Shown: piece after piece, positions 43,906-58,499 of the stretch
How the letters are laid out: every line of letters begins with the position of its first letter
How positions within the stretch are numbered: position 1 is the first letter of the stretch
DNA from: Segetibacter koreensis DSM 18137
GTDB taxonomy: Bacteria > Bacteroidota > Bacteroidia > Chitinophagales > Chitinophagaceae
Assembly: GCF_000374045.1 (NCBI RefSeq)
Contig: NZ_KB893322.1
Coordinates: 62,305 to 126,304 of the forward strand
Length of the DNA: 64,000 bases
Direction of reading: 5' to 3'
The notes under the pieces: generated by a model
What the model saw: the letters and a program-made list of their open reading frames with translations, nothing else
Databases searched by the model: none
Told to the model about the DNA's origin: nothing
Program-made: the position numbers and the translations under genes

Positions 43906-45792
43906 ATGAATAATTTGATTGCATTTATTCCTGCTTTGCCACTAATTGGTTTCCTTATTTTATCCTTGGCAGGAAGACGTTTGCCTAAACAATTAATAGC
44001 CTGGATTGGTGCAGGGACAGTGAGTTTAGCAGCTATTCTTACCATTATTATCGGAATCCAATTTTTGCAAAACCCTCCTGATAACGCTTACACACAAACT
44101 TTATGGCAATGGATTAAGACTGAAAATTTTTCCTGTGCTATCAATTTTAGAATGGATGCCTTGTCGCTTGTATTTGTATTTATCATCACTTTTGTTGGCG
44201 CACTTATTCATATTTATTCAACTGCCTTTATGCATGATGACAGGGATTATGCGCGGTTCTTCGCAAGTATGAATCTGTTTGTCTGCTCAATGCTTATATT
44301 GGTACTTGCCGACAACCTTTTATTGATGTACTTAGGTTGGGAAGGCGTGGGTTTGTGTAGTTATTTATTAATTGGATTTTGGTATGAAACACTTGCGAAT
44401 GTACAGGCAGCAAACAAGGCTTTTTATATCACCCGCATCGGAGATACTGCAATGGCTATTGGTCTTTTTTTGCTGTTTAAAGAATTAGGTACACTAAACA
44501 TTCCTGATATTTTAAATAATTCCACCACACATTTTACGCAAGGTTCGGCAAGGATAACAACTATTGCTTTATTACTGTTGGCAGGTGGAATGGGCAAGTC
44601 AGCACAATTACCATTACAAACATGGCTACCAGATGCGATGGCAGGTCCATCACCGGTAAGCGCGTTGATACATGCAGCTACGATGGTTACTGCCGGTGTG
44701 TATCTAATAGCAAGAATGCATACTATTTTCGAATTGTCTCCACTAGCAATGAGTATTACTGCGGTTGTTGGAGCGGTTACTTTATTCGTTGCAGGTACGA
44801 GCGCAATGGTTCAAACAGATATCAAAAGAATTTTAGCTTATTCCACTATTAGTCAGATTGGATATATGTTTCTTGCATTAGGTGTAGGTGCATGGAGTGC
44901 GGCTATTTTTCATTTCTTTACGCATGCTTTTTTTAAAGCCCTTTTATTCCTTGCTGCTGGAGCCGTCATTGAATCCCTCCACCACGAGCATAATATTTTT
45001 AGAATGGGTGGATTAAAAAACAGGATGCCTGTTGTATTCTGGACTTTTTTAGCGGGCTCCGCTGCATTGGCTGCCCTGCCTTTCATTACTGCCGGCTTTT
45101 TTAGTAAAGACCAAATATTATTTTATTCCTGGACAGCCGATAACGGACATCCAATCCTTTGGGTAGTTGCTCTTTTGGGCGCGTACATAACTGCTTTTTA
45201 TACTACCCGCCTTATGATTATTGTTTTCTGGGGAGAAATGAAAACGCCAATCGGGCATCCACCCGGTAGGGTAATGACAGTGCCATTAATTATATTAGCT
45301 GTTCTGAGTGTTATAGCCGGGTTCGTTGAATGGCCACATAACATGATGCACGTGACACTTTTTTCAGACCTCGTACAAAAAGTTTTACCTGCAACGATTG
45401 TACAGGAAACCGGACCATCCGAAATTATTTTTGAGCTGATAGCAATAGCAACCACGCTTTTAGGAATATATACGGGATATTCTTTGTATTACCGCGACAC
45501 TCGTTTAATTGAACAATGGAGACAGATGCCGGAAATGAGGGATGTACGTAACTTCCTGTATAAAGGATGGGGGTTTGATTGGTTGAATAACCTCATTTTT
45601 GTAAGGCCTTTTGTGTACCTCACCTCTATAAATAAATCAGACTTTTTTGACCAGTTGTACAAGGGCATTGCGTCGGGAAGCCGCAAGCTAAATGAATCCT
45701 TTTCAGTTTCTCAAAACGGCTCGTTGAGGTGGTATGTGGCAGGTGTGCTAATAGGAATTCTATTCATCCTAACCTTACAACTTATGTTATGA
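43906..45792 (+). CDS. nuoL: NADH-quinone oxidoreductase subunit L
   Basis: Distal antiporter-like proton channel subunit, 628 residues, about 15-16 spans. Landmarks: FRMDALSLVFVFIITFVGALIHIYS, LLMYLGWEGVGLCSYLLIGFWYE with the channel Glu, LPLQTWLPDAMAGPSPVSALIHAATMVTAG with the channel Lys region and HAFFKALLFLAAGAVI. The long lateral helix region and the final span VAGVLIGILFILTLQLML are present. The stop overlaps the nuoM start (ATGA). Confidence 0.96.
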   Translation: MNNLIAFIPALPLIGFLILSLAGRRLPKQLIAWIGAGTVSLAAILTIIIGIQFLQNPPDNAYTQTLWQWIKTENFSCAINFRMDALSLVFVFIITFVGALIHIYSTAFMHDDRDYARFFASMNLFVCSMLILVLADNLLLMYLGWEGVGLCSYLLIGFWYETLANVQAANKAFYITRIGDTAMAIGLFLLFKELGTLNIPDILNNSTTHFTQGSARITTIALLLLAGGMGKSAQLPLQTWLPDAMAGPSPVSALIHAATMVTAGVYLIARMHTIFELSPLAMSITAVVGAVTLFVAGTSAMVQTDIKRILAYSTISQIGYMFLALGVGAWSAAIFHFFTHAFFKALLFLAAGAVIESLHHEHNIFRMGGLKNRMPVVFWTFLAGSAALAALPFITAGFFSKDQILFYSWTADNGHPILWVVALLGAYITAFYTTRLMIIVFWGEMKTPIGHPPGRVMTVPLIILAVLSVIAGFVEWPHNMMHVTLFSDLVQKVLPATIVQETGPSEIIFELIAIATTLLGIYTGYSLYYRDTRLIEQWRQMPEMRDVRNFLYKGWGFDWLNNLIFVRPFVYLTSINKSDFFDQLYKGIASGSRKLNESFSVSQNGSLRWYVAGVLIGILFILTLQLML

Positions 45793-47258
45793 TATTGGGA
45801 ATAATGATATCAATTTTACTTGTTGGTGGACTTCTTTGTTGGTTAACAGCAAAGTGGAATATTCAACTTACCAAATGGATAGCACTACTGGCGGTATTAA
45901 TCGATTTTGCTCTAATTAGTAATATTTGGTCGCAACATCCAACAACAACATCAACTGGTTCAAATGCGTGGTTTATCAATTTCCAGGCAAACTGGATTCC
46001 TTCTTTTGGTATCACCTTTCATCTTGCATTAGATGGTCTTAGTACCATCTTATTGTTGCTTACTTTTTTCCTTGGAATCTTGGCTGTCCTTTGTTCATGG
46101 AACGAGATAAAAGAACGGATAGGATTTTATTATTTCAACCTTTTATGGACCCTTGCTGGAATTAGTGGCGTCTTTGTAGCACTCGACCTATTCCTGTTTT
46201 ATTTTTTCTGGGAAGTTATGCTGATACCGATGTTTTTCTTAATCGGAATTTGGGGAGATAGCAACCGAAGATACGCAGCTTACAAATTTTTCATCTTTAC
46301 TCAAGCCGGCGGATTACTAATGCTGATTGCTATACTTGCTTTGTACTTTATTCATGGCGCGCAAACGGGAACTTATTCTTATGATTATTTAAGCCTGTTA
46401 AATACTAAACTTACACCTTCTGCCGCTGGTTGGATTATGTCTGGTTTTCTCATCGCTTTTGTGATAAAATTACCAATGGTTCCTTTTCATAACTGGTTGC
46501 CTGACGCACACAGTGAAGCACCGACAGCAGGCAGTCTAATACTTGCCGGATTGCTGCTAAAAACAGGCGCATATGGAATTATAAGATTTGTGTTGCCATT
46601 GTTTCCAGATGCATCAGCAGGTATAGCATGGTGGGCAATATTGTTTGGAGTAATCGGCATTGTGTATGGAGCTATGATGGCTTTTTCACAAACAGATATA
46701 AAAAGGTTGATAGCATATACTTCAGTAAGCCATATGGGGTTTGTATTAGTGGGAATTTTCGCTTTTACTGAAATGGCGATGCAGGGAGTTGTGATGCAAA
46801 TAATTACCCACGGAATAAGCACTGGGGCACTGTTCGTGATGGCAGGCATGCTAAAGGAACGGCTGCATACAAGGGACATCGGAAGAATGGGAGGATTGTG
46901 GACGTCCATGCCGCGAATGGGAGGGGTAGCGCTATTATTCACAATGGCTTCTTTGGGATTGCCGGTATTAGGAAATTTTATTGCCGAGTTTTTAATATTA
47001 ATGGGGACATTTTTAGTAAATGTGCCTTTAACGGTAATTGCTACCCTCGGATTAGTTTTCTCTGCGTTGTACTCCTTGCGTCTAATGCAAAAAGTATTTC
47101 TTGGACCGGTTGCGGTTCAACAAGCTGTGCGAGATTTAAGTGTGAGAGAAATCGTTATCATGTCAGTATTAACGATAAGCATTGTTTTGTTAGGGTTGTA
47201 TCCGCAACCGGTGATAGACATGGCGAAGACTATGGTGAATGACGTTGTAAGAAGATGA
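45789..47258 (+). CDS. nuoM: NADH-quinone oxidoreductase subunit M
   Basis: Antiporter-like proton channel subunit, 489 residues, 14 spans. Landmarks: FHLALDGLSTILLLLTFFLG, FYFFWEVMLIPMFFLIGIWG with the channel Glu, LPMVPFHNWLPDAHSEAPTAGSLILAG with the Lys and TPxH-like part, SQTDIKRLIAYTSVSHMGFV. The start is the ATG at 45789, which overlaps the nuoL TGA by four bases; the TTG at 45729 opening the frame is inside nuoL and not needed. Confidence 0.95.
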   Translation: MILGIMISILLVGGLLCWLTAKWNIQLTKWIALLAVLIDFALISNIWSQHPTTTSTGSNAWFINFQANWIPSFGITFHLALDGLSTILLLLTFFLGILAVLCSWNEIKERIGFYYFNLLWTLAGISGVFVALDLFLFYFFWEVMLIPMFFLIGIWGDSNRRYAAYKFFIFTQAGGLLMLIAILALYFIHGAQTGTYSYDYLSLLNTKLTPSAAGWIMSGFLIAFVIKLPMVPFHNWLPDAHSEAPTAGSLILAGLLLKTGAYGIIRFVLPLFPDASAGIAWWAILFGVIGIVYGAMMAFSQTDIKRLIAYTSVSHMGFVLVGIFAFTEMAMQGVVMQIITHGISTGALFVMAGMLKERLHTRDIGRMGGLWTSMPRMGGVALLFTMASLGLPVLGNFIAEFLILMGTFLVNVPLTVIATLGLVFSALYSLRLMQKVFLGPVAVQQAVRDLSVREIVIMSVLTISIVLLGLYPQPVIDMAKTMVNDVVRR

Positions 47259-47265
47259 GCCCCGG

Positions 47266-47275
47266 CCCTAAAGGG
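47266..47275. repeat. intergenic repeat family C, short copy
   Basis: CCCTAAAGGG in the context GAGCCCCGGCCCTAAAGGGA, starting right at the nuoM stop. A shortened version of the element after nuoI. With the hairpin it could affect transcript stability between nuoM and nuoN. Confidence 0.45.
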
Positions 47276-47313
47276 AGAAAAACAAATGCTTTAAACTTAT
47301 TTAATTTAAAGTT

Positions 47314-48741
47314 ATGACATCACTTCAATTTTATGGATTACTTCCTTTTATAGTACTTGCCATAGCTTCTGTGGTTGTGATATTGCTGATAGCATTTAAA
47401 CAAAGTCATACACTGATACAGGTGACAGGTTTTGGGATGATGTGTTTAGTCATTTTTTCTATGTGGTATGTTCGAGATAGACTGCCTGTTGACGTGCCGC
47501 CGCTATTTGTCGTTGATGGGTTTGCAGCAGTATTTACAGGCTTGATTGTTTTTTGTGTTTTGGTCGTAGGACTGCTTTCTTTTATTTATTTTGAAGAACG
47601 GGAAGAAAATCCAAAAGAATATTACATCCTTCTTTTTCTTAGTACGCTAGGTGCTGCCACCCTTACTATCAGCAGACATTTTATTTCTTTCTTCTTAGGA
47701 TTGGAAATTTTAAGCGTGAGTTTATATGCACTTATTGCCTATCTGCGTACCCGTAATAATGCTGTAGAAGCCGGGATGAAATATCTTGTACTCGCGGCTT
47801 TATCATCCGCTTTTCTTTTATTTGGTATGGCTCTTATTTACATGGAAACCGGTACTATGGATTTTGCCACAATAGCCCGTACAATTAGTACTTCATATTC
47901 TCCCCTATTTATTACCGGCATGGGAATGATGGTTGTTGCAATCGGGTTTAAACTTGCATTAGTGCCTTTTCATTTATGGGCTGCAGATGTGTACCAGGGA
48001 GCTCCATCACCGGTTACTTCATTTATAGCAACAGTATCAAAAATCGGTGTTTTTGCCGTATTGCTGCGTTTTGCACAAGCAGTTCAATTACAAAAATATC
48101 CTTCGGCTCTTTACATTTTTGCGGGTCTCGCTATTGTATCAATGATTATCGGTAACGTACTTGCCCTGCAACAGCAGAATATTAAACGATTGTTGGCCTA
48201 TTCATCAATCGCTCATTTCGGTTATTTGCTGGTTGCTTTTTTGCCGGGGAATGCGGCAGGTGTGCAAGCGGCTATTTTTTATCTTTCTGCTTATTCGATT
48301 ACTTTATTGGCAGCGTTTGGTTGTATTACTATGCTATCGACAAAAGAAAAAGATGCTGAAAGCCCAGATTTTTATCGTGGGTTATTTTGGCAAAACCCAA
48401 TCCTGGCTGCCGTTCTTACTGTTGTTATGTTATCCCTTGCAGGTATTCCGCTTACCGGGGGATTTATGGGAAAATTTATGGTATTAACTTCTGGTGTTCA
48501 ACAACAGTTGTGGTTCCCTGTGATTGTACTAGTAGTAACAAGTGTCCTTGGCTTGTATTACTATTTGCGTATTATCAGCTTACTATTTGCAGAAGCACCG
48601 GCAGCAGGATTGAGAGAGAAAAACCTTCATCCCTTTTTTAATTTCGTCACTTATACAGCACTGGTTGTGCTGGCTTTATTGTTACTGGGAATAGGGATTC
48701 TCCCTGGATTGCTTATTGATGGCATTAGGCAGTTTTTATAG
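47314..48741 (+). CDS. nuoN: NADH-quinone oxidoreductase subunit N
   Basis: Third antiporter-like subunit, 475 residues, 14 spans, last gene of the operon. Landmarks: FFLGLEILSVSLYALIAYLR, RNNAVEAGMKYLVLAALSSAFLLFGMALIY, KLALVPFHLWAADVYQGAPSPVTSFIATVSK, NIKRLLAYSSIAHFGYLLVAF and LAGIPLTGGFMGKF. No clear terminator is visible after the stop. Confidence 0.96.
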   Translation: MTSLQFYGLLPFIVLAIASVVVILLIAFKQSHTLIQVTGFGMMCLVIFSMWYVRDRLPVDVPPLFVVDGFAAVFTGLIVFCVLVVGLLSFIYFEEREENPKEYYILLFLSTLGAATLTISRHFISFFLGLEILSVSLYALIAYLRTRNNAVEAGMKYLVLAALSSAFLLFGMALIYMETGTMDFATIARTISTSYSPLFITGMGMMVVAIGFKLALVPFHLWAADVYQGAPSPVTSFIATVSKIGVFAVLLRFAQAVQLQKYPSALYIFAGLAIVSMIIGNVLALQQQNIKRLLAYSSIAHFGYLLVAFLPGNAAGVQAAIFYLSAYSITLLAAFGCITMLSTKEKDAESPDFYRGLFWQNPILAAVLTVVMLSLAGIPLTGGFMGKFMVLTSGVQQQLWFPVIVLVVTSVLGLYYYLRIISLLFAEAPAAGLREKNLHPFFNFVTYTALVVLALLLLGIGILPGLLIDGIRQFL

Positions 48742-49448: not shown

Positions 49449-50387
49449 TCACACACACTCCCAAATCGTATCTAAAAACCATTTTTTTGCGTCAAAAAAA
49501 TGAGCCTTTGGTGTAAAGCCACTTTTCTTTGCTAATTCATCCGTTTGTTCTAATGTATATTTCTGGGCTATTTCCATAAATATCGTCTCCCCTTCTGCAA
49601 AATTAAACGTGTTATCTGCAATCTCTACTTTTTGATTTTTTGCGCTTACAACGTAACTTTTACATGCTCCTGTCGCGGGGTCATAAGTGGGATAATGATA
49701 AAAATTTTTTATTTTAAAATTTCCACCTAAATCATTATTTATTCTCTTTAAGAGATTAAGATTAAATTGTCTTGTATAGCCTGACTTATCATTATAAGCG
49801 TCAAGAACTTTTATAGGGTCTTTCTTTAAATCAAATCCAACTAAAACAAGGTCTCCAGGTACTAAATGTTGTCGCATCAATTTACAAAAATCTCCTGCTT
49901 TATCCATCGGCACGTTTCCTATGTTGCCACCTAGAAACAAAACGACTTTTATTTTATTTGATAATGTTTTGGCCTTTTCAAGCATCTCAAAATACTCGCC
50001 TTTTAAGCCATGAAACTGCAATCCGGCAAGTTTTTTAGGAAGGGTTGAATGAAGCAGGTTGATAACGTTTTCAGAAATATCAACAGGAAAATATGTGAAT
50101 TTTACCTTTTTAGCTAAAAGACCTTTGAGCAAATGAACTGACTTTGTTGCATCGCCTGCGCCTAGTTCTACTATGTCAAATTCTTTGCTATGCCTGCTTA
50201 AGATTGATACCAGTTCATCTGTTTGCTTTGTGAAAATTTCCATTTCACATTTAGTAGGATAATACTCCTTACACTTCATTATCTTTTGAAACAATGCATC
50301 ACCCTCCGCATTATAAAAATATTTTGATTGAAGAAATTTATCTTTTGCAGATAATCCTTTCAAAACATCCTCTAAGAATTGATTCAT
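49449..50387 (-). CDS. egtD: L-histidine N(alpha)-methyltransferase EgtD
   Basis: SAM-dependent enzyme that trimethylates histidine to hercynine, the first step of ergothioneine synthesis. 312 residues. Signatures: KYFYNAEGDALFQKIMKCKEYYPTKCE, SAM motif IVELGAGDATKSVHLLKGL, FLGGNIGNVP (with the substrate-amino-binding Asn region), GFDLKKDP and the late GETIFMEIAQKYT. In the mycobacterial enzyme the last motif carries Glu and Ser that hold the imidazole; here Glu272 is kept, but the Ser position reads Ala274, so substrate binding may differ slightly. Last gene of the operon, six bases after egtB. Confidence 0.9.
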   Translation of the reverse strand: MNQFLEDVLKGLSAKDKFLQSKYFYNAEGDALFQKIMKCKEYYPTKCEMEIFTKQTDELVSILSRHSKEFDIVELGAGDATKSVHLLKGLLAKKVKFTYFPVDISENVINLLHSTLPKKLAGLQFHGLKGEYFEMLEKAKTLSNKIKVVLFLGGNIGNVPMDKAGDFCKLMRQHLVPGDLVLVGFDLKKDPIKVLDAYNDKSGYTRQFNLNLLKRINNDLGGNFKIKNFYHYPTYDPATGACKSYVVSAKNQKVEIADNTFNFAEGETIFMEIAQKYTLEQTDELAKKSGFTPKAHFFDAKKWFLDTIWECV

Positions 50388-50393
50388 GATTTT

Positions 50394-51557
50394 TTATTGT
50401 GCCAACCTGATACCGGTATATTGCCAGCGCAGGTGCGGATGAAAAAAGTTGCGGTAAGTTTTGCGGCTATGCCCGGGAGAAGTTACCTCAGAGGCTCCGC
50501 GCAGTACTTTTTGATTGACCATAAATTTGCCGTTGTATTCACCAATTGCTCCTGGTGCTTTTTTAAAGCCAGGATAAGGCAGATAAGCACTCTCGGTCCA
50601 CTCCCACCGGCTACCCCATTCAAATTTATCGGCGGCTACTTCCCATTCAAATTCAGTCGGCAAACGCATTCCTTTCCATGCTGCAAATGCTGAGGCTTCG
50701 TAAAAACTGATGTGATTAAGTATGCCTTCCGCATCAACAGGTATCAATCCCTCTAAAGTATAATGATGCCATTTGCCATCCACCAGATGCCAGTACATAG
50801 GAGATTGAATATTATTGTTTTTTACCCAATCTAAACCTTCTGCATGCCATAGTGTAAAATCTCTATATTCTCCTGCTTCAATAAATTCAATGAATTCACC
50901 ATTGGTAATTAGATTCTTTGATATTTGATATTGAGGCAGGTAAACTTTGTGTCGGCCCAATTCATTATCAAAGCAAAAACCATTTCCGTTATACCCTATT
51001 TCGTATATCCCTTCATCAATAATTATCGAGCCTCCGACAGAAGTGTTTTTAATAGTTTTAGAAGCATCTTTTTTATATGAAGGAAATAATGGATTATTAC
51101 CAAGAATATATTTTATATCAGTGTACAAAAGCTCCTGGTGTTGCTCTTCATGATTAAATCCAAGCTCCAATAATTCTTCCACATCTTCACTGCAGCCACA
51201 TTCTATCAGCTTTATCATGGCTTCGTCAACATATTTGCGATAGCGTTTAACATCCAGAACTGTTGGCCTGCTTAAGTTTCCCCTATCGGTGCGTATTACT
51301 CTTGCACCAACTGTTTCGTAATAACTATTAAATACATAATTATAATCAGGATTAAACTCCTGGTATCCGTTATAAAAGTTTTTTAAAATAAAAGTCTCAA
51401 AAAACCATGTTGTATGTCCAATATGCCATTTCGGTGGACTGACATCGGCTACAGGCTGTACAACATAATCTTCAGTTTCCAGCGGTTCACAAATGTCTTC
51501 AGTTCTTTTTCTTACAGCTATATATCTATCTAAAACAGTCATTTTTTCAATTGTCAT
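50394..51557 (-). CDS. egtB: ergothioneine sulfoxide synthase EgtB
   Basis: Non-heme iron enzyme that joins hercynine with cysteine or gamma-glutamylcysteine to a sulfoxide. 387 residues. The N-terminal DinB-like domain gives the iron ligands His48 (KWHIGHTTWFFE), His136 and His140 (FNHEEQHQELL). The C-terminal FGE-sulfatase domain has YEIGYNGNGFCFDNE, LITNGEFIEFIEAGEY, MRLPTEFEWEVAAD, WEWTESAYLPYPGF and RKTYRNFFHPHLRWQYTGIRLA. Length and layout fit EgtB, not the longer OvoA. No egtA/egtC/egtE in the operon, so a cysteine-using EgtB and an unlinked lyase are likely. The ATG overlaps the transporter stop by 11 bases; an ATG at 51542 is an alternative. Confidence 0.9.
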   Translation of the reverse strand: MTIEKMTVLDRYIAVRKRTEDICEPLETEDYVVQPVADVSPPKWHIGHTTWFFETFILKNFYNGYQEFNPDYNYVFNSYYETVGARVIRTDRGNLSRPTVLDVKRYRKYVDEAMIKLIECGCSEDVEELLELGFNHEEQHQELLYTDIKYILGNNPLFPSYKKDASKTIKNTSVGGSIIIDEGIYEIGYNGNGFCFDNELGRHKVYLPQYQISKNLITNGEFIEFIEAGEYRDFTLWHAEGLDWVKNNNIQSPMYWHLVDGKWHHYTLEGLIPVDAEGILNHISFYEASAFAAWKGMRLPTEFEWEVAADKFEWGSRWEWTESAYLPYPGFKKAPGAIGEYNGKFMVNQKVLRGASEVTSPGHSRKTYRNFFHPHLRWQYTGIRLAQ

Positions 51558-53118
51558 CTATATACATTTTTAATTCGGAAATGGTTCGAATTTTTAAATC
51601 CGAAGCCTGCTTTTTTCTCATCATTAATGTATAAGCATTATTAAACCCAATAGGTTTCAACCATTTAATATGGTATTTCCTCATAAACTCTTTTTGCACA
51701 AAATCAAATACGCTTTCTTTGTTTCCAATTATACTTTGAATAGTATGGTTGTCTGGCTGCAAAACTACCAGCAATCCTGTTCCGGTATATTCAGGATACA
51801 AATCAATCTGGTCATTTGTTAAAGCATCGAAACAAATTTTAGTTCCCCCTAATCCAGTTTTTGTTTCTACACTTAAATCTGTATTTCCTTTCAACAAAAT
51901 AGCATATATCTGTAATAAAATATATTGTTCTCCAAATATTTTTGACCCCATCTGTATTATTCCCTTTTTTCCATTCCGGGGTTTTTTATACAGTTTTTGT
52001 TGAGTCAAAAAATCCCTAGCTACTTTTTCCGGTGATTGCTTAAGGTAGTCTACTCTATAATTAAGCTCTGTCATTATTGAATCGTTAATTTTTCCTGACA
52101 GAATATTTAATGCAGGTTCAAGCTCAGGATATTTCTCTAGAACCTCTTCCCTTACAATAGGTGCAGCATAATACGGTGGAAATATTGTTTTATCATCCTT
52201 AAGCACAACAAGATCATACGCTTTTAACCTGCCATCTGTACTGTAACCGCTAATAACATCAAGCTGTTTTTCATAAGCTGCTTTGTACATAACAGCATCA
52301 CTAATAACTACTGTTCTGATGTTTAATCCGTACTTATTTTTCAGCCCAAGATAACCATCGCTTCTGCCCATAAATTCGGGTGTAAAGCCGGCAAGCATTT
52401 TACTACCAATAGCTGAAGGAAGCAGGTAAAATGACGAAAGAGCAATTAAAATTATCGGAATAGCTATAAAAGCTGTTTTTGCTTTTTTTATATTAAAATG
52501 TTGTGCTTTTGCAAGAAGAAAATCGAAAATGATGGCAAGCAAAGCAGCGGGAATAGCTCCGGCCAAAATCATATTAGTGTTATTCAATGCAATTCCGCCA
52601 AATATAAATTCGCCTAGCCCACCGGCAGCAATATAGGCGGCGAGCGTCGCTACACCAACATTAATAACCGTTGCGGTTCTAATTCCTGCAAGAATAACAG
52701 GCATAGCCAGAGGAAGTTCTACTTTAAAAAGAATTTGCGAAGGACTCATTCCCATTCCTTTTGCTGCATCGGTTACGGCTGCATTTACTCCAATTATTCC
52801 TGTATAAGTATTTCGGATAATAGGCAAAAAAGCGTACAGCATCAGTGCAACAATAGCAGGCCTTGCCCCGATACCTAAAAGAGGAATCATGAAACCAAGC
52901 AGTGCGATACTTGGAATGGTTTGTAAAATCCCGGCAATTCCAAGTACTGGACCGCTCCATTTCTTTTTTCTGCTTATCCAGATACCGGTAGGGATTCCTA
53001 TTAATATTGATAAAAACAATGAAATAAAGGTTAACCCGATATGAGCAAGGGTCTGCTGCAGCAATTTATCTGATTGCTGAGCCATAAAGTTCCAGAGGGT
53101 TTGCTGTTGCTCATTCAT
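51547..53118 (-). CDS. ABC permease fused to permuted OpuAC-type binding domain
   Basis: 523-residue fusion. Residues about 15-235 are a permease of the OpuCB/ProW kind with six spans and the EAA loop GMSPSQILFKVELPLAMPVI; FGGIALNNTNMILAGAIPAALLAI is also typical. The rest is an OpuAC/ProX-like binding domain in permuted order: residues 240-375 carry the canonical second half (GFTPEFMGRSDGYLGLKNKYG, GYSTDGRLKAYDLVVLKDD, FPPYYAAPIVRE, LNYRVD, ARDFL) and residues 386-523 the first half (IQMGSKIFGEQYILLQIYAI, GLGGTKICFDAL, DLYPEYTGTGL, WLKPIGFNNAYTLMMR, IRTISEL). EgtU-type ergothioneine transporters have a comparable permease-binder fusion. With egtB and egtD in the same operon, ergothioneine (or hercynine) is the likely ligand; betaine or carnitine is the alternative. 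Confidence 0.85.
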   Translation of the reverse strand: MNEQQQTLWNFMAQQSDKLLQQTLAHIGLTFISLFLSILIGIPTGIWISRKKKWSGPVLGIAGILQTIPSIALLGFMIPLLGIGARPAIVALMLYAFLPIIRNTYTGIIGVNAAVTDAAKGMGMSPSQILFKVELPLAMPVILAGIRTATVINVGVATLAAYIAAGGLGEFIFGGIALNNTNMILAGAIPAALLAIIFDFLLAKAQHFNIKKAKTAFIAIPIILIALSSFYLLPSAIGSKMLAGFTPEFMGRSDGYLGLKNKYGLNIRTVVISDAVMYKAAYEKQLDVISGYSTDGRLKAYDLVVLKDDKTIFPPYYAAPIVREEVLEKYPELEPALNILSGKINDSIMTELNYRVDYLKQSPEKVARDFLTQQKLYKKPRNGKKGIIQMGSKIFGEQYILLQIYAILLKGNTDLSVETKTGLGGTKICFDALTNDQIDLYPEYTGTGLLVVLQPDNHTIQSIIGNKESVFDFVQKEFMRKYHIKWLKPIGFNNAYTLMMRKKQASDLKIRTISELKMYIDDN

Positions 53119-54076
53119 GGTTAAACGAATTTTTATACTGTGTATAAGCTGCCATTAACGAAGCAATTTCAATTTGTTTTTTATCATTGTTATTAATAGA
53201 AACAAATCTTTCAAAACCTTGCTGTCTGGCTGATACAGTTTCTAAGACCTGCCATAAACTATTTTCTGGCGAAATTTTGTTTTCATTAGTTCCATCAATC
53301 GCTTTTGGCAAAAGCGACCAAATATCATTAATAAAAATATTTTCAAGCTCAAGCTGAAAATGTTGTTCTTTTATAAAAGAGCGTACAAAATCATTTATAG
53401 GATTAAATAACAAATCTGTTGCTTTCCCTATTTGCACAATCTTACCTTTATCCATGAGGCAGACACGGTCACCTAATTCAAAAGCTTCCTGCACATCGTG
53501 TGTAACCATTAAGATCGTTTTACGTTTCAATTCATCGAGGGTTGTAAATTCTTTTCGAATGCCTACACGTGTAACAGGGTCAAGCGCTCCCAGAGGTTCA
53601 TCCATTAATAAAACCGGCGGGTATGCCGCCAACGCCCGGGCAAGTCCTACCCTTTGTTGCTGACCTCCACTTAGCTGCGACGGATATAAATCTCCCAATG
53701 TTTGCGACAATTGCAATTTTTCCAGTAATTCCCTGGTCCGGTTAATTATTTTGTCTTTACTCCATTTCAACAAGTTAGGAACAATAGAAATATTCTCGGC
53801 AACTGTGTAGTGCGGAAACAACCCATGATGCTGCAAAACATAACCTATTCCCCGCCGCATTTTTTCTGCAGGCTGTTCGAGTATGTTTTGCCCGTTTACA
53901 ACAATTTTTCCCGAAGATGGTTCTACCAGCCTGTTTATCATACGAAGTGTAGTTGTTTTGCCACATCCGCTTGTACCCAGCAGCACTACAGTTTCACCTT
54001 CTTTTACCTCGAAAGAAATATCATCTACCGCTTTTGTGCTTTTATAAAATTTACTTACATTTTTAAGTCGTATCAT
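53111..54076 (-). CDS. ABC transporter ATPase (OpuCA/ProV/EgtV-like)
   Basis: 321-residue ATPase, first gene of the ergothioneine operon. Walker A is LLGTSGCGKTTTLRM (about 32-46), signature LSGGQQQRVGLARAL (about 138), Walker B VLLMDEPLGALDPVTR (about 157), switch MVTHDVQEAFELGDR. RMINRLVEPSSGKI and GYVLQHHGLFPHYTVAENI are typical of the osmoprotectant-type subfamily. The C-terminal 80 residues are where OpuCA has CBS domains; here they look reduced (ETVSARQQGFERFVSI). The stop overlaps the start of the permease (ATGAATGA, 8 bases), so subunits are coupled. Confidence 0.9.
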   Translation of the reverse strand: MIRLKNVSKFYKSTKAVDDISFEVKEGETVVLLGTSGCGKTTTLRMINRLVEPSSGKIVVNGQNILEQPAEKMRRGIGYVLQHHGLFPHYTVAENISIVPNLLKWSKDKIINRTRELLEKLQLSQTLGDLYPSQLSGGQQQRVGLARALAAYPPVLLMDEPLGALDPVTRVGIRKEFTTLDELKRKTILMVTHDVQEAFELGDRVCLMDKGKIVQIGKATDLLFNPINDFVRSFIKEQHFQLELENIFINDIWSLLPKAIDGTNENKISPENSLWQVLETVSARQQGFERFVSINNNDKKQIEIASLMAAYTQYKNSFNHE

Positions 54077-54745: not shown

Positions 54746-55609
54746 TTGGTTCATCGCTCCACAATACAACTGCTACGATTTCATTTTTCCTGGTTTTTGA
54801 TGCCTGTTTACTGGTTTGCATTAAGTTTTGTAGAAAATATATATTTACCAAGGGCAATACTCGTATTTATTATCCTTCACCTGTTGATTTATCCTTCAAG
54901 CAATGGTTATAATAGTTTTATGGATAGAGATGCAGGCAGTATAGGTGGTCTTAAAAAGCCACTGACACCTACAAAGCAATTATTTCTGGCGTCTGTTATT
55001 ATGGATGTTATTGCGATTGCTTTGTCGTTGTTTATTTCCACATTGTTTGCTACATGTATTTTTATTTATATTGTCTGTTCACGATTATACAGTTATAGAG
55101 GTGTAAGGTTAAAGAAATATCCAATTATAGGATACTTAACCGTGATCGTAAACCAGGGAGCGCTTACTTTTTTTATGGTATATCATGGTTCAGATATTTT
55201 CCTTACAAATCATATGTCATGGATGGGTTTATTGGCTGCTGCTTTTTTAATCGGTGGCTTTTATCCTATTACCCAGGTCTACCAGCATGAGGCAGATAAA
55301 AAAGATAACGTCACTACTATAAGCATGCTGATGGGGAAAAAAGGAACTTTTATTTTTTGCGGAATCATGTATTTGCTGGCGATGCTAATTTTATATTTAT
55401 ACTACAGTGGTCGCGAACTTTATACGCCGTTTATTGTTTTATTAATCTTTTTATTACCGGTACTCGTATATTTTATGCAATGGTTTTTGCAGGTGTTGAA
55501 AGACGAAAACAAGGCGGATTTTCAGCATACTATGCGGATGAACTGGATTGCCAGTACATGTACCAGTCTTGCATTTTTAACAATAATCCTTATTCATAAA
55601 TTTGGCTAA
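54746..55609 (+). CDS. UbiA family prenyltransferase
   Basis: 287-residue integral membrane prenyltransferase, about eight spans. The first Asp-rich motif that binds the magnesium-diphosphate is NGYNSFMDRDAGSIGG (about residue 53); the second lies in VYQHEADKKDNVTT (about residue 183). It should transfer an isoprenoid chain to an aromatic ring, or a related acceptor. The start is TTG at 54746; the next in-frame ATG would remove LLRFHFSWF, which is typical for the family. The stop overlaps the type III PKS start, so the polyketide phenol could be its acceptor. This is inference from position; some UbiA members act on other lipids. Confidence 0.85.
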   Translation: MVHRSTIQLLRFHFSWFLMPVYWFALSFVENIYLPRAILVFIILHLLIYPSSNGYNSFMDRDAGSIGGLKKPLTPTKQLFLASVIMDVIAIALSLFISTLFATCIFIYIVCSRLYSYRGVRLKKYPIIGYLTVIVNQGALTFFMVYHGSDIFLTNHMSWMGLLAAAFLIGGFYPITQVYQHEADKKDNVTTISMLMGKKGTFIFCGIMYLLAMLILYLYYSGRELYTPFIVLLIFLLPVLVYFMQWFLQVLKDENKADFQHTMRMNWIASTCTSLAFLTIILIHKFG

Positions 55610-56678
55610 AATAATATCAATAGGAACAGCTTTACCTGAGTATTGCCATGAGCAAAACGAGATTTTGAAGTTTATGCAAAAGGCGTACGTGCTGGGTGAA
55701 AGTGAAGCGCGTAAGCTGGCTTTTCTATATAAACAAAGCGAGATACAACAACGATACTCTGTTTTAAATGATTTTACAAAGACGGAAAATGAATGGGATT
55801 TTATCATTCCGGATTATAGCCCTTCTCTTGATGACCGAATGCGACTGTTTCAGCAATATGCGCCTGAGCTTTCTGTTGCTGCTATACAAAATGCAATTAA
55901 CGGTTTTATAGATCCGGGTCAAATTACTCACTTAATTACGGTCAGTTGTACTGGCATGAGCGCTCCTGGTCTTGATTTACAGATTGCAGAAGCATTGCAG
56001 CTTAAATCTAATCTTTTCCGTACGTCCGTTAATTTTATGGGTTGCTATGCTGCCATTCATGCGCTCAAAATGGCGCAGATGATCTGTGATTTTTCGCCAA
56101 ATGCGAATGTCGTTGTTGTGTGTACTGAACTTTGCACCATTCATTTTCAACAAGAGTACACACAGGACAATGCCTCCAGCAGTTTGTTGTTTGGTGATGG
56201 AAGCGCTGCAGTACTCGTTTCCAATACAGTGACTTCTGGTAATGCGTTAACGCTAAAAAGTTTCTATTCCGAGATTTGTTACAAAGGCAAGGAAGATATG
56301 TCGTGGCAGTTGAGCAGCAGTGGTTTTTTAATGAAGCTTAGCTCCTATATTCCTCAACTGATACACGAAGATATATCGGAGTTAGTAAGTAAGGCCTTGA
56401 AACATTGTGATTTGCTAAAGGATGAAATTACTCACTGGTGTCTTCATCCCGGTGGCAAAAAAATACTGGAGGTGATAAAACAACAGCTATCATTAAGTAT
56501 GGAAGACCTTTCGTGCAGCCGGAAAATTCTTTCAGAATATGGCAACATGTCTTCGCCTACAATACTATTTGTATTGAAGGAAATTATGCAAGGTTTGGAA
56601 GAAAAACCCGCTAAAATATTCGGTGTTGCATTTGGTCCGGGGCTAACAATGGAAACCTTTATTGCCTCAAAAGAATGA
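55602..56678 (+). CDS. type III polyketide synthase
   Basis: 358-residue chalcone-synthase-like enzyme. The catalytic triad is complete: Cys116 (TVSCTGMSAPGLD), His282 (WCLHPGGKKIL) and Asn315 (EYGNMSSPT). Also visible are SVNFMGCYAAIHALKMA, LLFGDGSAAVLV and GVAFGPGLTMET. Such bacterial enzymes extend fatty acyl starters with malonyl-CoA to alkylresorcinols, alkylresorcylic acids or pyrones. It starts with TTG (55602) within the end of the UbiA gene, and its stop overlaps the methyltransferase start (ATGA). The neighbours match the logic of phenolic lipid operons such as srsABC of Streptomyces (PKS, methyltransferase, flavoprotein). Confidence 0.93.
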   Translation: MAKIISIGTALPEYCHEQNEILKFMQKAYVLGESEARKLAFLYKQSEIQQRYSVLNDFTKTENEWDFIIPDYSPSLDDRMRLFQQYAPELSVAAIQNAINGFIDPGQITHLITVSCTGMSAPGLDLQIAEALQLKSNLFRTSVNFMGCYAAIHALKMAQMICDFSPNANVVVVCTELCTIHFQQEYTQDNASSSLLFGDGSAAVLVSNTVTSGNALTLKSFYSEICYKGKEDMSWQLSSSGFLMKLSSYIPQLIHEDISELVSKALKHCDLLKDEITHWCLHPGGKKILEVIKQQLSLSMEDLSCSRKILSEYGNMSSPTILFVLKEIMQGLEEKPAKIFGVAFGPGLTMETFIASKE

Positions 56679-57373
56679 CTTTTTCACGGAGGTCATATCA
56701 AAAAGAATTGCTCGACCAGGACGAAATTCCATTTGCTGATATTCAGCAGAATATGAAGGAACTGGATTTTATTAATACATGGCTCGGTGGTCATGCCATA
56801 ACTGTTGCTGCTTTTAAACTTTTATCCCGTGGAAAAAAGGAAATTTCTGTTTGTGAAATAGGCTGTGGAGGAGGTGACAATCTGGTAGCAATATACAATT
56901 GGTGCCAGAAAAAACATATTCAACTTTTAATCACCGGCATCGATATAAAAGAAGAATGTATCGATTATGCAAAAAGCCGTAAAACTCTTTCTTCAACGAC
57001 ATGGATAACAAATGATTATAAAAAAGTGCTTTTCGACACCAAGCCCGACATCATATTCTCAAGCTTGTTTTGCCATCATTTTGCTGATGAGGAGCTAATA
57101 TTACAAATTAACTGGATGAAACAGAATAGTAAAATCGGCTTTTTTATAAATGATTTGCATCGAAACTTCCTCGCATATCATTCTATTAAATTGTTAACCC
57201 GGCTTTTTTCAAAATCTTATCTTGTAAAAAGTGATGCACCTTTAAGTGTTGCAAGAGGATTTAAGAGGAATGAATTGAAGAGGTTATGCAGTGAAGCAAG
57301 GACAGGCAAGGCTACAGTGACGTGGAAATGGGCTTTTCGTTACCTTATAATGTATGAACATGAAGGAGCATAA
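56675..57373 (+). CDS. class I SAM-dependent methyltransferase
   Basis: 232-residue methyltransferase. SAM motif VCEIGCGGGDNLVAI (about residue 61), the acidic loop TGIDIKEECIDYAK (about 90) and IIFSSLFCHHFADEE (about 128) as in Methyltransf_11/25-type enzymes. Its place between the type III PKS and the FAD enzyme suggests it methylates the polyketide phenol or a derived hydroquinone. Start overlaps the PKS stop by four bases, and its end overlaps the FAD gene by 20 bases or 14 if the later ATG is used. Confidence 0.88.
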   Translation: MTFSRRSYQKELLDQDEIPFADIQQNMKELDFINTWLGGHAITVAAFKLLSRGKKEISVCEIGCGGGDNLVAIYNWCQKKHIQLLITGIDIKEECIDYAKSRKTLSSTTWITNDYKKVLFDTKPDIIFSSLFCHHFADEELILQINWMKQNSKIGFFINDLHRNFLAYHSIKLLTRLFSKSYLVKSDAPLSVARGFKRNELKRLCSEARTGKATVTWKWAFRYLIMYEHEGA

Positions 57374-58499
57374 GCGATATGATATTGCCATAATTGGCGG
57401 TGGACTTGCCGGCCTATGTCTCGCTATTCAATGCGTTGAAAAGCACTATAACGTAATACTTTTCGAGAAGGAAGAATATCCTTTTCATAAAGTATGCGGC
57501 GAATACATAAGCCTTGAAAGCTGGGATTTCCTGCAAACATTAGGGGTTCCATTACCTGAGTTAAATTTACCTATTATAAAAACCCTGCAAGTAACAGACG
57601 CTAAGGGTGAAGCTTATACTTTTAATCTTCCGCTTGGGGGATTTGGTGTCAGCCGCTTTTCTTTGGATAGTTTACTCTATCATATTGCTTTAACTAAAGG
57701 AGTCGAGATTTGCACAAACAGCAAAGTAAATAGTATTGAGTATAACAACGAGGAATTTACAATTTGCAGCTTAAAAAAAACAGTAAGGGCTAAAGTTGCG
57801 GCTGGCACTTTTGGAAAACGAAGTAATCTTGATATTAAATGGAACAGAACTTTTACAAGGCAAAAGCCTAATTCCTTAAATAATTATATCGGTATAAAAT
57901 ACCACGTTCGTTATAACCATCCTACAGATCATATTTATTTGCACAACTTTTATAAGGGCTACTGTGGAATCTCGAAGATTGAAGAAGATAAAAGTTGTCT
58001 TTGCTATCTAACTACAGCGCAAAACCTAAAAAATTGTGGAAACTCTGTTTCGGAAATGGAACGTCAGGTCTTATATAAAAATCCATTGCTTAAAGAAATT
58101 TTTGATTCGGCTGAATTTTTATACGAAGAGCCTCTTGCCATTTCTCAAATAAGTTTTGATAAAAAATTGCAGGTTGAAAATCACGTATTAATGCTGGGAG
58201 ACGCAGCGGGAATGATAAGTCCGTTGTGTGGAAACGGAATGAGTATGGCAATGCATTCAGCAAAATTAGCTTTTGAAAAAATACACCTCTTTCTTATAAA
58301 TAGCATTTCTAGGAGGCAGATGGAAAAAGATTACAGTGAAACCTGGAAAAGACATTTTTTCAAAAGATTGTGGATGGGAAGAAATGTACAAAAGCTTTTT
58401 GGTGGAGAAGTTTCTACGTCACTTTTTCTTAAATCCATGCATTCGTTTCCTCTTTTATCATCGTTGGTCATACGTTCAACTCACGGTCAGCCATTTTGA
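57354..58499 (+). CDS. FAD-dependent oxidoreductase of the PKS operon
   Basis: 381-residue flavoprotein of the geranylgeranyl reductase/PHBH superfamily. FAD dinucleotide motif IAIIGGGLAGLCLAI with FEKEEYPFHKVCGEYIS, and the second FAD motif MLGDAAGMISPLCGNGMSMAM near residue 284. Such enzymes hydroxylate aromatic rings or reduce isoprenoid double bonds; with a type III PKS and a UbiA enzyme in the operon both are possible. An ATG at 57360 is an alternative start, two codons later and preceded by a better-spaced region. Last gene of the operon. Confidence 0.87.
   Translation: MNMKEHKRYDIAIIGGGLAGLCLAIQCVEKHYNVILFEKEEYPFHKVCGEYISLESWDFLQTLGVPLPELNLPIIKTLQVTDAKGEAYTFNLPLGGFGVSRFSLDSLLYHIALTKGVEICTNSKVNSIEYNNEEFTICSLKKTVRAKVAAGTFGKRSNLDIKWNRTFTRQKPNSLNNYIGIKYHVRYNHPTDHIYLHNFYKGYCGISKIEEDKSCLCYLTTAQNLKNCGNSVSEMERQVLYKNPLLKEIFDSAEFLYEEPLAISQISFDKKLQVENHVLMLGDAAGMISPLCGNGMSMAMHSAKLAFEKIHLFLINSISRRQMEKDYSETWKRHFFKRLWMGRNVQKLFGGEVSTSLFLKSMHSFPLLSSLVIRSTHGQPF

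Follow-up and report, generated by a model that had tools for sequence, protein, structure and literature searches.

The genome of Segetibacter koreensis DSM 18137 carries an operon in which the genes of an ATP-binding cassette (ABC) transporter directly precede the ergothioneine synthesis genes egtB and egtD, and this arrangement raises the question of which compound such a transporter moves. We analysed a 64,000-nt stretch of this genome (the window; NZ_KB893322.1, positions 62,305-126,304), and all coordinates refer to the window unless a locus or contig handle precedes them. The genome comprises 6.1 Mb, is 99.97% complete and, according to a genome search, contains a single fusion gene of the kind described here. 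Our data suggest, with a probability of roughly 0.5, that the transporter recaptures the cell's own histidine-derived betaines, with hercynine as the favoured cargo and perhaps ergothioneine. The operon consists of the following elements:

53111-54076, minus strand: ABC ATPase (EgtUA/ProV-like), 321 amino acids, first gene of the operon here; Pfam ABC_tran; TIGR01186 proV 290 bits, below the cut-off of 326.6
51547-53118, minus strand: permease/binding-domain fusion; Pfam BPD_transp_1 and OpuAC
50394-51557, minus strand: egtB, sulfoxide synthase, 387 amino acids; DinB_2 and FGE-sulfatase; closest solved relative Cabther EgtB
49449-50387, minus strand: egtD, histidine N-alpha-methyltransferase, 312 amino acids; Methyltransf_33 PF10017 312.6 bits
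53111-53118, minus strand: 8-base stop/start overlap, ATPase/permease
51547-51557, minus strand: 11-base overlap, fusion/egtB

Recomputed gene calls agreed with the gene order and spacings of the initial annotation: ATPase, fusion, EgtB and EgtD follow head to tail; the first three genes overlap by 8 and 11 bases, and 6 bases separate egtB from egtD. No RNA element reached its gathering score within the window, and a promoter pattern that we take to be that of Bacteroidota gave 0 matches there, against 1.99 expected by chance.

When we scanned named genomes with 12 fusions of the permuted type (binding-domain halves swapped, see below), the best 80 of at least 540 relatives were kept. These 80 loci are the source of all counts of named loci given here, and as nearest homologues they are a biased and not a random sample. 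They came from Segetibacter, Mucilaginibacter, Pedobacter, Dyadobacter, Chitinophaga, Flavipsychrobacter, Hufsiella, Ginsengibacter, Ilyomonas, Parafilimonas, Pseudopedobacter and unnamed Bacteroidetes. EgtB was located beside the fusion in 78/80 loci and EgtD was present as well in 77/80. The fusion was surrounded by ATPase, EgtB and EgtD in 74 loci, by EgtB and EgtD only in 3, by ATPase and EgtB only in 1 and by the ATPase only in 2 (L108 and L122, the latter running off its contig). In locus L063, EgtB is split: its first part lies next to the fusion and the remainder, together with EgtD, on the other strand; this contig of a metagenome-assembled genome, in which a flavin disulfide reductase gene immediately precedes the fusion and no ATPase is present, is likely to be chimeric or rearranged. 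Among loci with a same-strand match for the gene concerned, the ATPase/permease overlap was exactly 8 bases in 48/77 and 4 bases in 13/77, the distance between fusion and EgtB was at most 50 bases in 73/77 (median -11), and that between EgtB and EgtD at most 120 bases in 72/76. Thus, the cluster is widespread in Bacteroidota and its gene order is not unique to S. koreensis. Alternative orders were also observed, namely EgtD-ATPase-fusion-EgtB (G268), EgtD-EgtB-ATPase-fusion (G521, G632) and EgtB-EgtD-ATPase-fusion (G590), and the genes of G647 are likewise clustered in an order other than ATPase-fusion-EgtB-EgtD. Three genomes of family f96 (L221, L222, L223) carry unpermuted fusions at the same place, in the order ATPase-fusion-EgtB-EgtD.

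The tie between importer and pathway was also seen when gene content was compared across genomes. Among 296 class-mates of at least 90% completeness, all 16 genomes with a permuted fusion carried EgtB, as compared with 40/280 of the others (hypergeometric p 3.8e-13); counted by genus, 8/8 fusion genera were EgtB-positive, as compared with 42/166 genera overall (9.8e-6), and these p values overstate the evidence because related genomes are not independent and linked genes are co-inherited. The 16 do not include G126, with a permease alone, or G200, in which the binder comes before the permease; both lack EgtB. In a survey of 392 genomes of the phylum, which overlaps the class set, a permuted fusion of full length occurred in 23 genomes, of which 21 carried EgtB as well; overall, EgtB was found in 117/392 genomes. 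The two genomes without EgtB above cut-off (G412 and G656) belong to one and the same genus, g262. For the 59 nearest relatives, EgtB was present in 13/13 genomes with the fusion vs 9/46 without; here, five genomes with short weak permease matches were counted as fusion-negative and 12 with weak partial EgtB matches only as EgtB-negative. EgtD, which was sought in 48 chosen genomes, was found in 37/37 genomes with a permuted fusion (G412 and G656 included), in 5/6 EgtB-less genomes with an unpermuted fusion (these five representing a single genus, g282) and in 0/4 EgtB-less genomes with an unfused permease match. In several genomes (G112, G224, G241, G305, G332, G010, G661, G672, G448) the ATPase-fusion pair is unlinked and EgtB lies elsewhere in the genome. 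Apparent unpermuted fusions, defined in the phylum survey as a permease-only match in a frame of at least 484 amino acids with the domain order checked in 11, co-occurred with EgtB in 26/32 genomes and unfused permease matches in 6/10; this contrast is weak, EgtB being common in those lineages.

Of the two biosynthetic enzymes, EgtB clearly exceeded its cut-off. This protein matched NCBIfam TIGR03440 with 526.3 bits (cut-off 360) and yielded 405 bits across residues 11-387 with the EgtB structures 6qki, 6o6l and 8qf6, the source of which we take to be Chloracidobacterium thermophilum (entry 6o6l is named EgtB (Cabther)). It carries the His residues of an HxxxHxE motif and a YY pair, presumably the Fe and catalytic sites of EgtB; the letters were identical in 76-77/78 loci and the stretch was missing in the rest. 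One position near the C-terminus is variable, with Gln in 70 loci, Leu in 3 and His in 2, the stretch being missing in 3. Assignment as selenoneine or ovothiol enzyme was rejected, since SenA (344.7 bits, cut-off 420) and OvoA (101.8 bits, cut-off 400) both remained below their thresholds. In EgtD, the alignment placed N158, Y198 and E272 at Asn166, Tyr206 and Glu282 of Mycobacterium smegmatis EgtD. At the place of M252 of that enzyme, the window protein and 77/77 loci have Ser. Residue 274 is Ala at the place of what we take to be Ser284 of the M. smegmatis enzyme, and 76/77 relatives have Ser there, the stretch being missing in the other.

The transporter's unusual part is the fusion protein, for which none of the 16 listed NCBIfam models attained its cut-off. 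When both halves of its binding domain were aligned to EgtUC, the domain order turned out to be permease, C half, N half:

52435-53118, minus strand: permease domain (residues 1-228 of the fusion); BPD_transp_1 at residues 41-202
51979-52410, minus strand: C-terminal half of the classical binding-domain fold, which comes first; residues 237-380, of which 239-379 align to EgtUC 137-277
51550-51960, minus strand: N-terminal half of the classical fold, which comes last; residues 387-523, of which 390-518 align to EgtUC 10-134

Searches with the separate pieces gave the same order in the relatives examined, among which were all 23 permuted fusions from the phylum survey. An assembly artefact was rejected, since the permuted frame aligns over at least 510 residues in 79/80 named loci (L122 runs off its contig). 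A structural model of the binding domain alone, calculated from 38 sequences (window and relatives), reached a mean predicted local distance difference test score of 91.1 and a predicted template modelling score of 0.87. When folds were compared in an order-dependent manner, the best matches over the full length were to OpuAC of Bacillus subtilis (2b4m: 297 columns, template modelling score 0.64 for query and 0.71 for target, 16% identity), and the EgtUC structures matched over about 140 columns only, which correspond to the C half (46% identity). The domain thus belongs by sequence to the ProX/EgtU subfamily and by chain order to the OpuAC type; OpuAC and ProX presumably differ by just such a swap of halves. 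We calculated trees, which carried no outgroup, from 38 fusions (27 permuted and 11 ordered N half, C half, permease). In the permease-only tree, the permuted fusions grouped together (support 0.84), unlike the 11 unpermuted ones. In the joined-block tree, it was the 11 unpermuted fusions that grouped together (label 1.0), with the permuted ones on the opposite side of the midpoint root (label 0.375). Both trees are compatible with a single origin of the swapped halves but do not prove it. The permuted binder suggests that a half swap of the OpuAC type has arisen in a second subfamily.

By overall score, the closest binding domain of known structure was EgtUC of Streptococcus pneumoniae (190.7 bits for the wild type, 194.4 for the T274G mutant), followed by acetylcholine/nicotine sensor binders (180.5) and Archaeoglobus fulgidus ProX (AfProX; 131.2), which bears out the relation to EgtU proposed in the initial annotation. 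According to the EgtU study (PMC9732360), EgtU contacts the carboxylate of its ligand with K242, T296 and R379, to which come E375, N339 and a cage of Y341, Y419 and Y443; G244, F293 and Y337 are given as ergothioneine determinants, and the corresponding AfProX residues are Phe, Tyr and Phe. In the window protein, K242, T296, R379 and E375 correspond to K393, T447, R252 and E248, and Y341, Y419, Y443 and N339 to Y496, Y292, Y316 and N494, so that the aromatic cage and the Lys/Thr/Arg set are kept. The three determinants are altered:

51934-51936, minus strand: Phe395, equivalent of EgtU Gly244 (Phe in AfProX), from the alignment and PMC9732360
51787-51789, minus strand: Tyr444, equivalent of EgtU Phe293 (Tyr63 in AfProX), same sources
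51643-51645, minus strand: Phe492, equivalent of EgtU Tyr337 (Phe107 in AfProX), same sources

This F/Y/F set was found in 80/80 named loci. Over the same loci, E248, R252, K393, T426, Y444, T447, N494, Y496 and Y316 were unchanged, and Y292 was retained in 79/80. Ser stands at the Y292 place in L116, L012 and L013. The segments around the three sites read SKPF, YVEYTGT and LGFRDDY in the window protein against SKIF, YPEYTGT and IGFNNAY in AfProX, and the four-Tyr cage of AfProX is present (Y292, Y316, Y444, Y496, together with F395 and F492). With the carboxylate and cage residues retained, normal recognition of the cargo's betaine end is to be expected; the thione end is built unlike that of EgtU. 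The initial annotation, in which neither the permutation nor the flavin disulfide reductase appears, had argued that the coupling to EgtB and EgtD makes ergothioneine or hercynine the cargo. The coupling is real and conserved, and it holds as co-occurrence where the genes are unlinked, but the likeness to EgtU does not carry ergothioneine specificity, since the F/Y/F set is of the AfProX type.

The genomic context indicates the ergothioneine pathway and the pocket a betaine, and recapture of the cell's own hercynine, perhaps also of ergothioneine, satisfies both. EgtD would convert histidine to hercynine (trimethylhistidine), and EgtB would add sulfur to the latter, probably from cysteine, which we take to be the donor of the nearest solved EgtB relative. 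ATPase and fusion would import hercynine, perhaps ergothioneine, that has leaked from the cell, stems from neighbours or arises from oxidised ergothioneine. A fused binding domain is a mark of ABC importers, and we infer from it that transport is directed inward; the aromatic cage and the Lys/Thr/Arg set point to a trimethylammonium carboxylate as the probable class of cargo. Hercynine is favoured over ergothioneine because the EgtU-specific residues are lost and because the two EgtB-less genomes keep EgtD near the importer, with pocket letters unchanged within their genus. G412 carries EgtD, a DUF427 protein, ATPase and fusion in this order; G656 keeps this order, interrupted by one large gene. 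In genus g262, the first diagnostic site (the G244 place) is Gln in 4/4 examined genomes, EgtB being present in two of them and absent from the other two, and the remaining 13 listed sites are also alike in these genomes. As side observations, a DUF427 protein lies beside EgtD and near the importer in g262 loci L228, L227/L253 and L226 (PF04248 was identified in L228, and the others have a similar sequence start), and in G629 a 152-residue open reading frame directly before EgtD (L251:3733-4191) matches only a short piece of EgtB and looks like a remnant.

Several data weigh against recapture of the cell's own betaines. The EgtU determinants are lost throughout, and exchange of the first of them in the S. 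pneumoniae protein (G244F) lowered ergothioneine affinity about 100-fold, the mutant also being less stable (PMC9732360). The affinity of that protein for hercynine was about 10,000-fold below that for ergothioneine, as stated in the same paper, and thus a hercynine importer would represent a new specificity. The F/Y/F letters also occur in unpermuted relatives, including G200, which lacks EgtB and EgtD, so that the pocket letters do not mark the pathway-linked members. As to the surveys, apart from the inflated p values, the EgtD count of 37/37 comes from chosen genomes and the two EgtB-less permuted cases from one genus only; these genomes might equally scavenge ergothioneine or employ another sulfur-inserting enzyme. 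On the enzyme side, EgtD fell just short of NCBIfam TIGR03438 (269.1 bits, cut-off 290.9), its Pfam PF10017 score being far above the cut-off there. A search of the S. koreensis genome gave no EgtE above cut-off (five matches of 31-113 bits, cut-off 400), and since all 14 control genomes also gave matches, none of the five was identified as EgtE.

The main rival, which remains a serious one although we consider it possible rather than probable, is a compatible-solute importer that takes up glycine or proline betaine, either for osmoprotection or as methyl source for the three S-adenosylmethionine-dependent methylations of EgtD. The nearest families (Pfam OpuAC; NCBIfam OsmF, ProW and ProV) and the identity with AfProX at all three diagnostic sites are in line with this explanation, and the methyl-supply version would account for the tie to EgtD. 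When the N half was compared alone, acetylcholine/nicotine sensor binders, which presumably derive from a choline/betaine binder, scored highest (80.6 bits), followed by AfProX (69.2) and wild-type EgtUC (67). However, a general osmolyte importer would not be expected to be nearly confined to genomes with EgtB or EgtD (16/16, 21/23 and 37/37), nor to cluster with these genes in several orders. PMC12689799 suggests that ergothioneine itself can act as a compatible solute and that a betaine carrier can take it up in a producer; following this suggestion, the osmolyte and ergothioneine functions need not exclude each other.

An EgtU-like, ergothioneine-specific scavenger with a differently built thione site in a producer strain appears doubtful. 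The overall score of EgtUC, the 46% identity of the C half, the retention of EgtU I243 in 78/80 named loci and the Gly found at the T274 position in 80/80 speak for such a protein, as do the solved ergothioneine-bound structures of the EgtUC mutants T274G and I243P. On the other hand, G244, F293 and Y337 are all altered in every named locus, and a pure scavenger would not need the EgtD that G412 and G656 keep near the importer. We regard it as improbable that the operon is merely inherited as a block by neutral hitch-hiking: many of the cases are linked and all tests lean on related genomes, but the alternative gene orders, the unlinked co-occurrence in several genera and the unpermuted fusions at the same operon position in family f96 speak against it. 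Export of ergothioneine, which the initial annotation had entertained and to which the tight linkage to synthesis genes and the secretion suggested for M. smegmatis without an identified exporter (PMC12689799) might point, is highly improbable and was rejected on architecture, as systems with a fused binding domain and a permease of the betaine-importer type import.

Many of the clusters related to that of S. koreensis begin with an additional gene. In 61 of the 73 named loci whose sequence extends at least 1500 bases beyond the ATPase start, this gene is preceded by that of a flavin disulfide reductase of about 460 amino acids, at a gap of -4 to 499 bases (median 9), an example being:

L080:112-1497: flavin disulfide reductase (others among L052-L131)

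Its CxxxxC cysteine pair was present in 61/62 loci with a match of at least 50%, and the stretch was missing from the other alignment. The best of three members scanned remained below the cut-off in all 25 NCBIfam models shown (PRK06370.1-4, 540.4 vs 629 bits), and the best PDB match (6kgy, 300.7 bits) is named only pyridine nucleotide-disulphide oxidoreductase. On the basis of position and family, we consider the protein a candidate ergothioneine reductase. In the set of 59 relatives, the reductase (E <= 1e-110) was found in 9 genomes, 9/9 of which carried EgtB (p 4e-5, to be read with the reservation made above for p values). In G010 it adjoins EgtB, the importer lying elsewhere in the genome, and in G027, which has no permuted importer, it lies between EgtD and EgtB (an arrangement seen in L205). 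The candidate role in ergothioneine reduction is weakened by the 13 EgtB genomes of the same set that lack the reductase at E 1e-110 and by the window's own genus, in which only 3/10 genomes carry it. The window does not contain the gene, and a 56% identical copy is located on another contig of the S. koreensis genome (G000:C68:154477-155853 = L201:5078-6457). A closed repair loop, in which a hercynine-selective permuted importer would recapture the desulfurised oxidation product for EgtB and the reductase would restore oxidised ergothioneine to the thiol, is a speculative and rather unlikely extension. If true, it would involve the first hercynine transporter, with a binder of swapped halves, and the first dedicated ergothioneine reductase, as far as the literature searched shows.

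The importer, with a permuted ProX/EgtU-type binder in an ergothioneine operon, can be compared with several known systems. EgtU of S. pneumoniae (EgtUA and EgtUBC; PMC9732360) shares the ATPase, the permease/binder fusion, a related binder and the cage and Lys/Thr/Arg contacts; it differs from the system described here, in which the binder halves are swapped, G244, F293 and Y337 are replaced by F, Y and F, and the operon includes EgtB and EgtD, so that the strain should make ergothioneine. The same paper describes bacterial ergothioneine importers in species not making the compound. Helicobacter pylori EgtU (8dp6, 8dp7) is a related binder (134.7 bits for 8dp6), but the alignment of 8dp6 to the unpermuted domain of L149 is a single stretch without a swap. 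AfProX (1sw1 and others), with the same letters at the three diagnostic sites, is unpermuted, is unfused in the solved chain and binds glycine and proline betaine. OpuAC of B. subtilis (2b4m, 2b4l) has the same order of halves; its identity of 15-18% in the five top matches and its Trp cage (PMC9732360), as opposed to the Tyr cage here, place the present permutation in another subfamily. For BetP of Corynebacterium glutamicum, also a betaine carrier, a part in ergothioneine import by a producer strain has been suggested, but BetP is a secondary carrier, the producer was engineered and the effect marginal (PMC12689799). In the open-licence literature, searched by titles and abstract beginnings and therefore weak evidence of absence, we found no Bacteroidota egt operon with a transporter, no permuted binder of this class, no ergothioneine reductase and no hercynine transporter. 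Coupling of synthesis to an importer of novel construction, and often to a disulfide reductase, in a conserved Bacteroidota cluster would mean that producers, too, handle ergothioneine through uptake and repair. Since context and pocket disagree here, likeness to EgtU by score does not predict the cargo.

The operon is flanked on one side by a divergent cluster (54746-58499) that encodes a UbiA prenyltransferase, a chalcone-synthase-like type III polyketide synthase, a methyltransferase-like protein and a geranylgeranyl-reductase-like flavoprotein, and on the opposite side (45729-48741) by NADH dehydrogenase subunits M and N.

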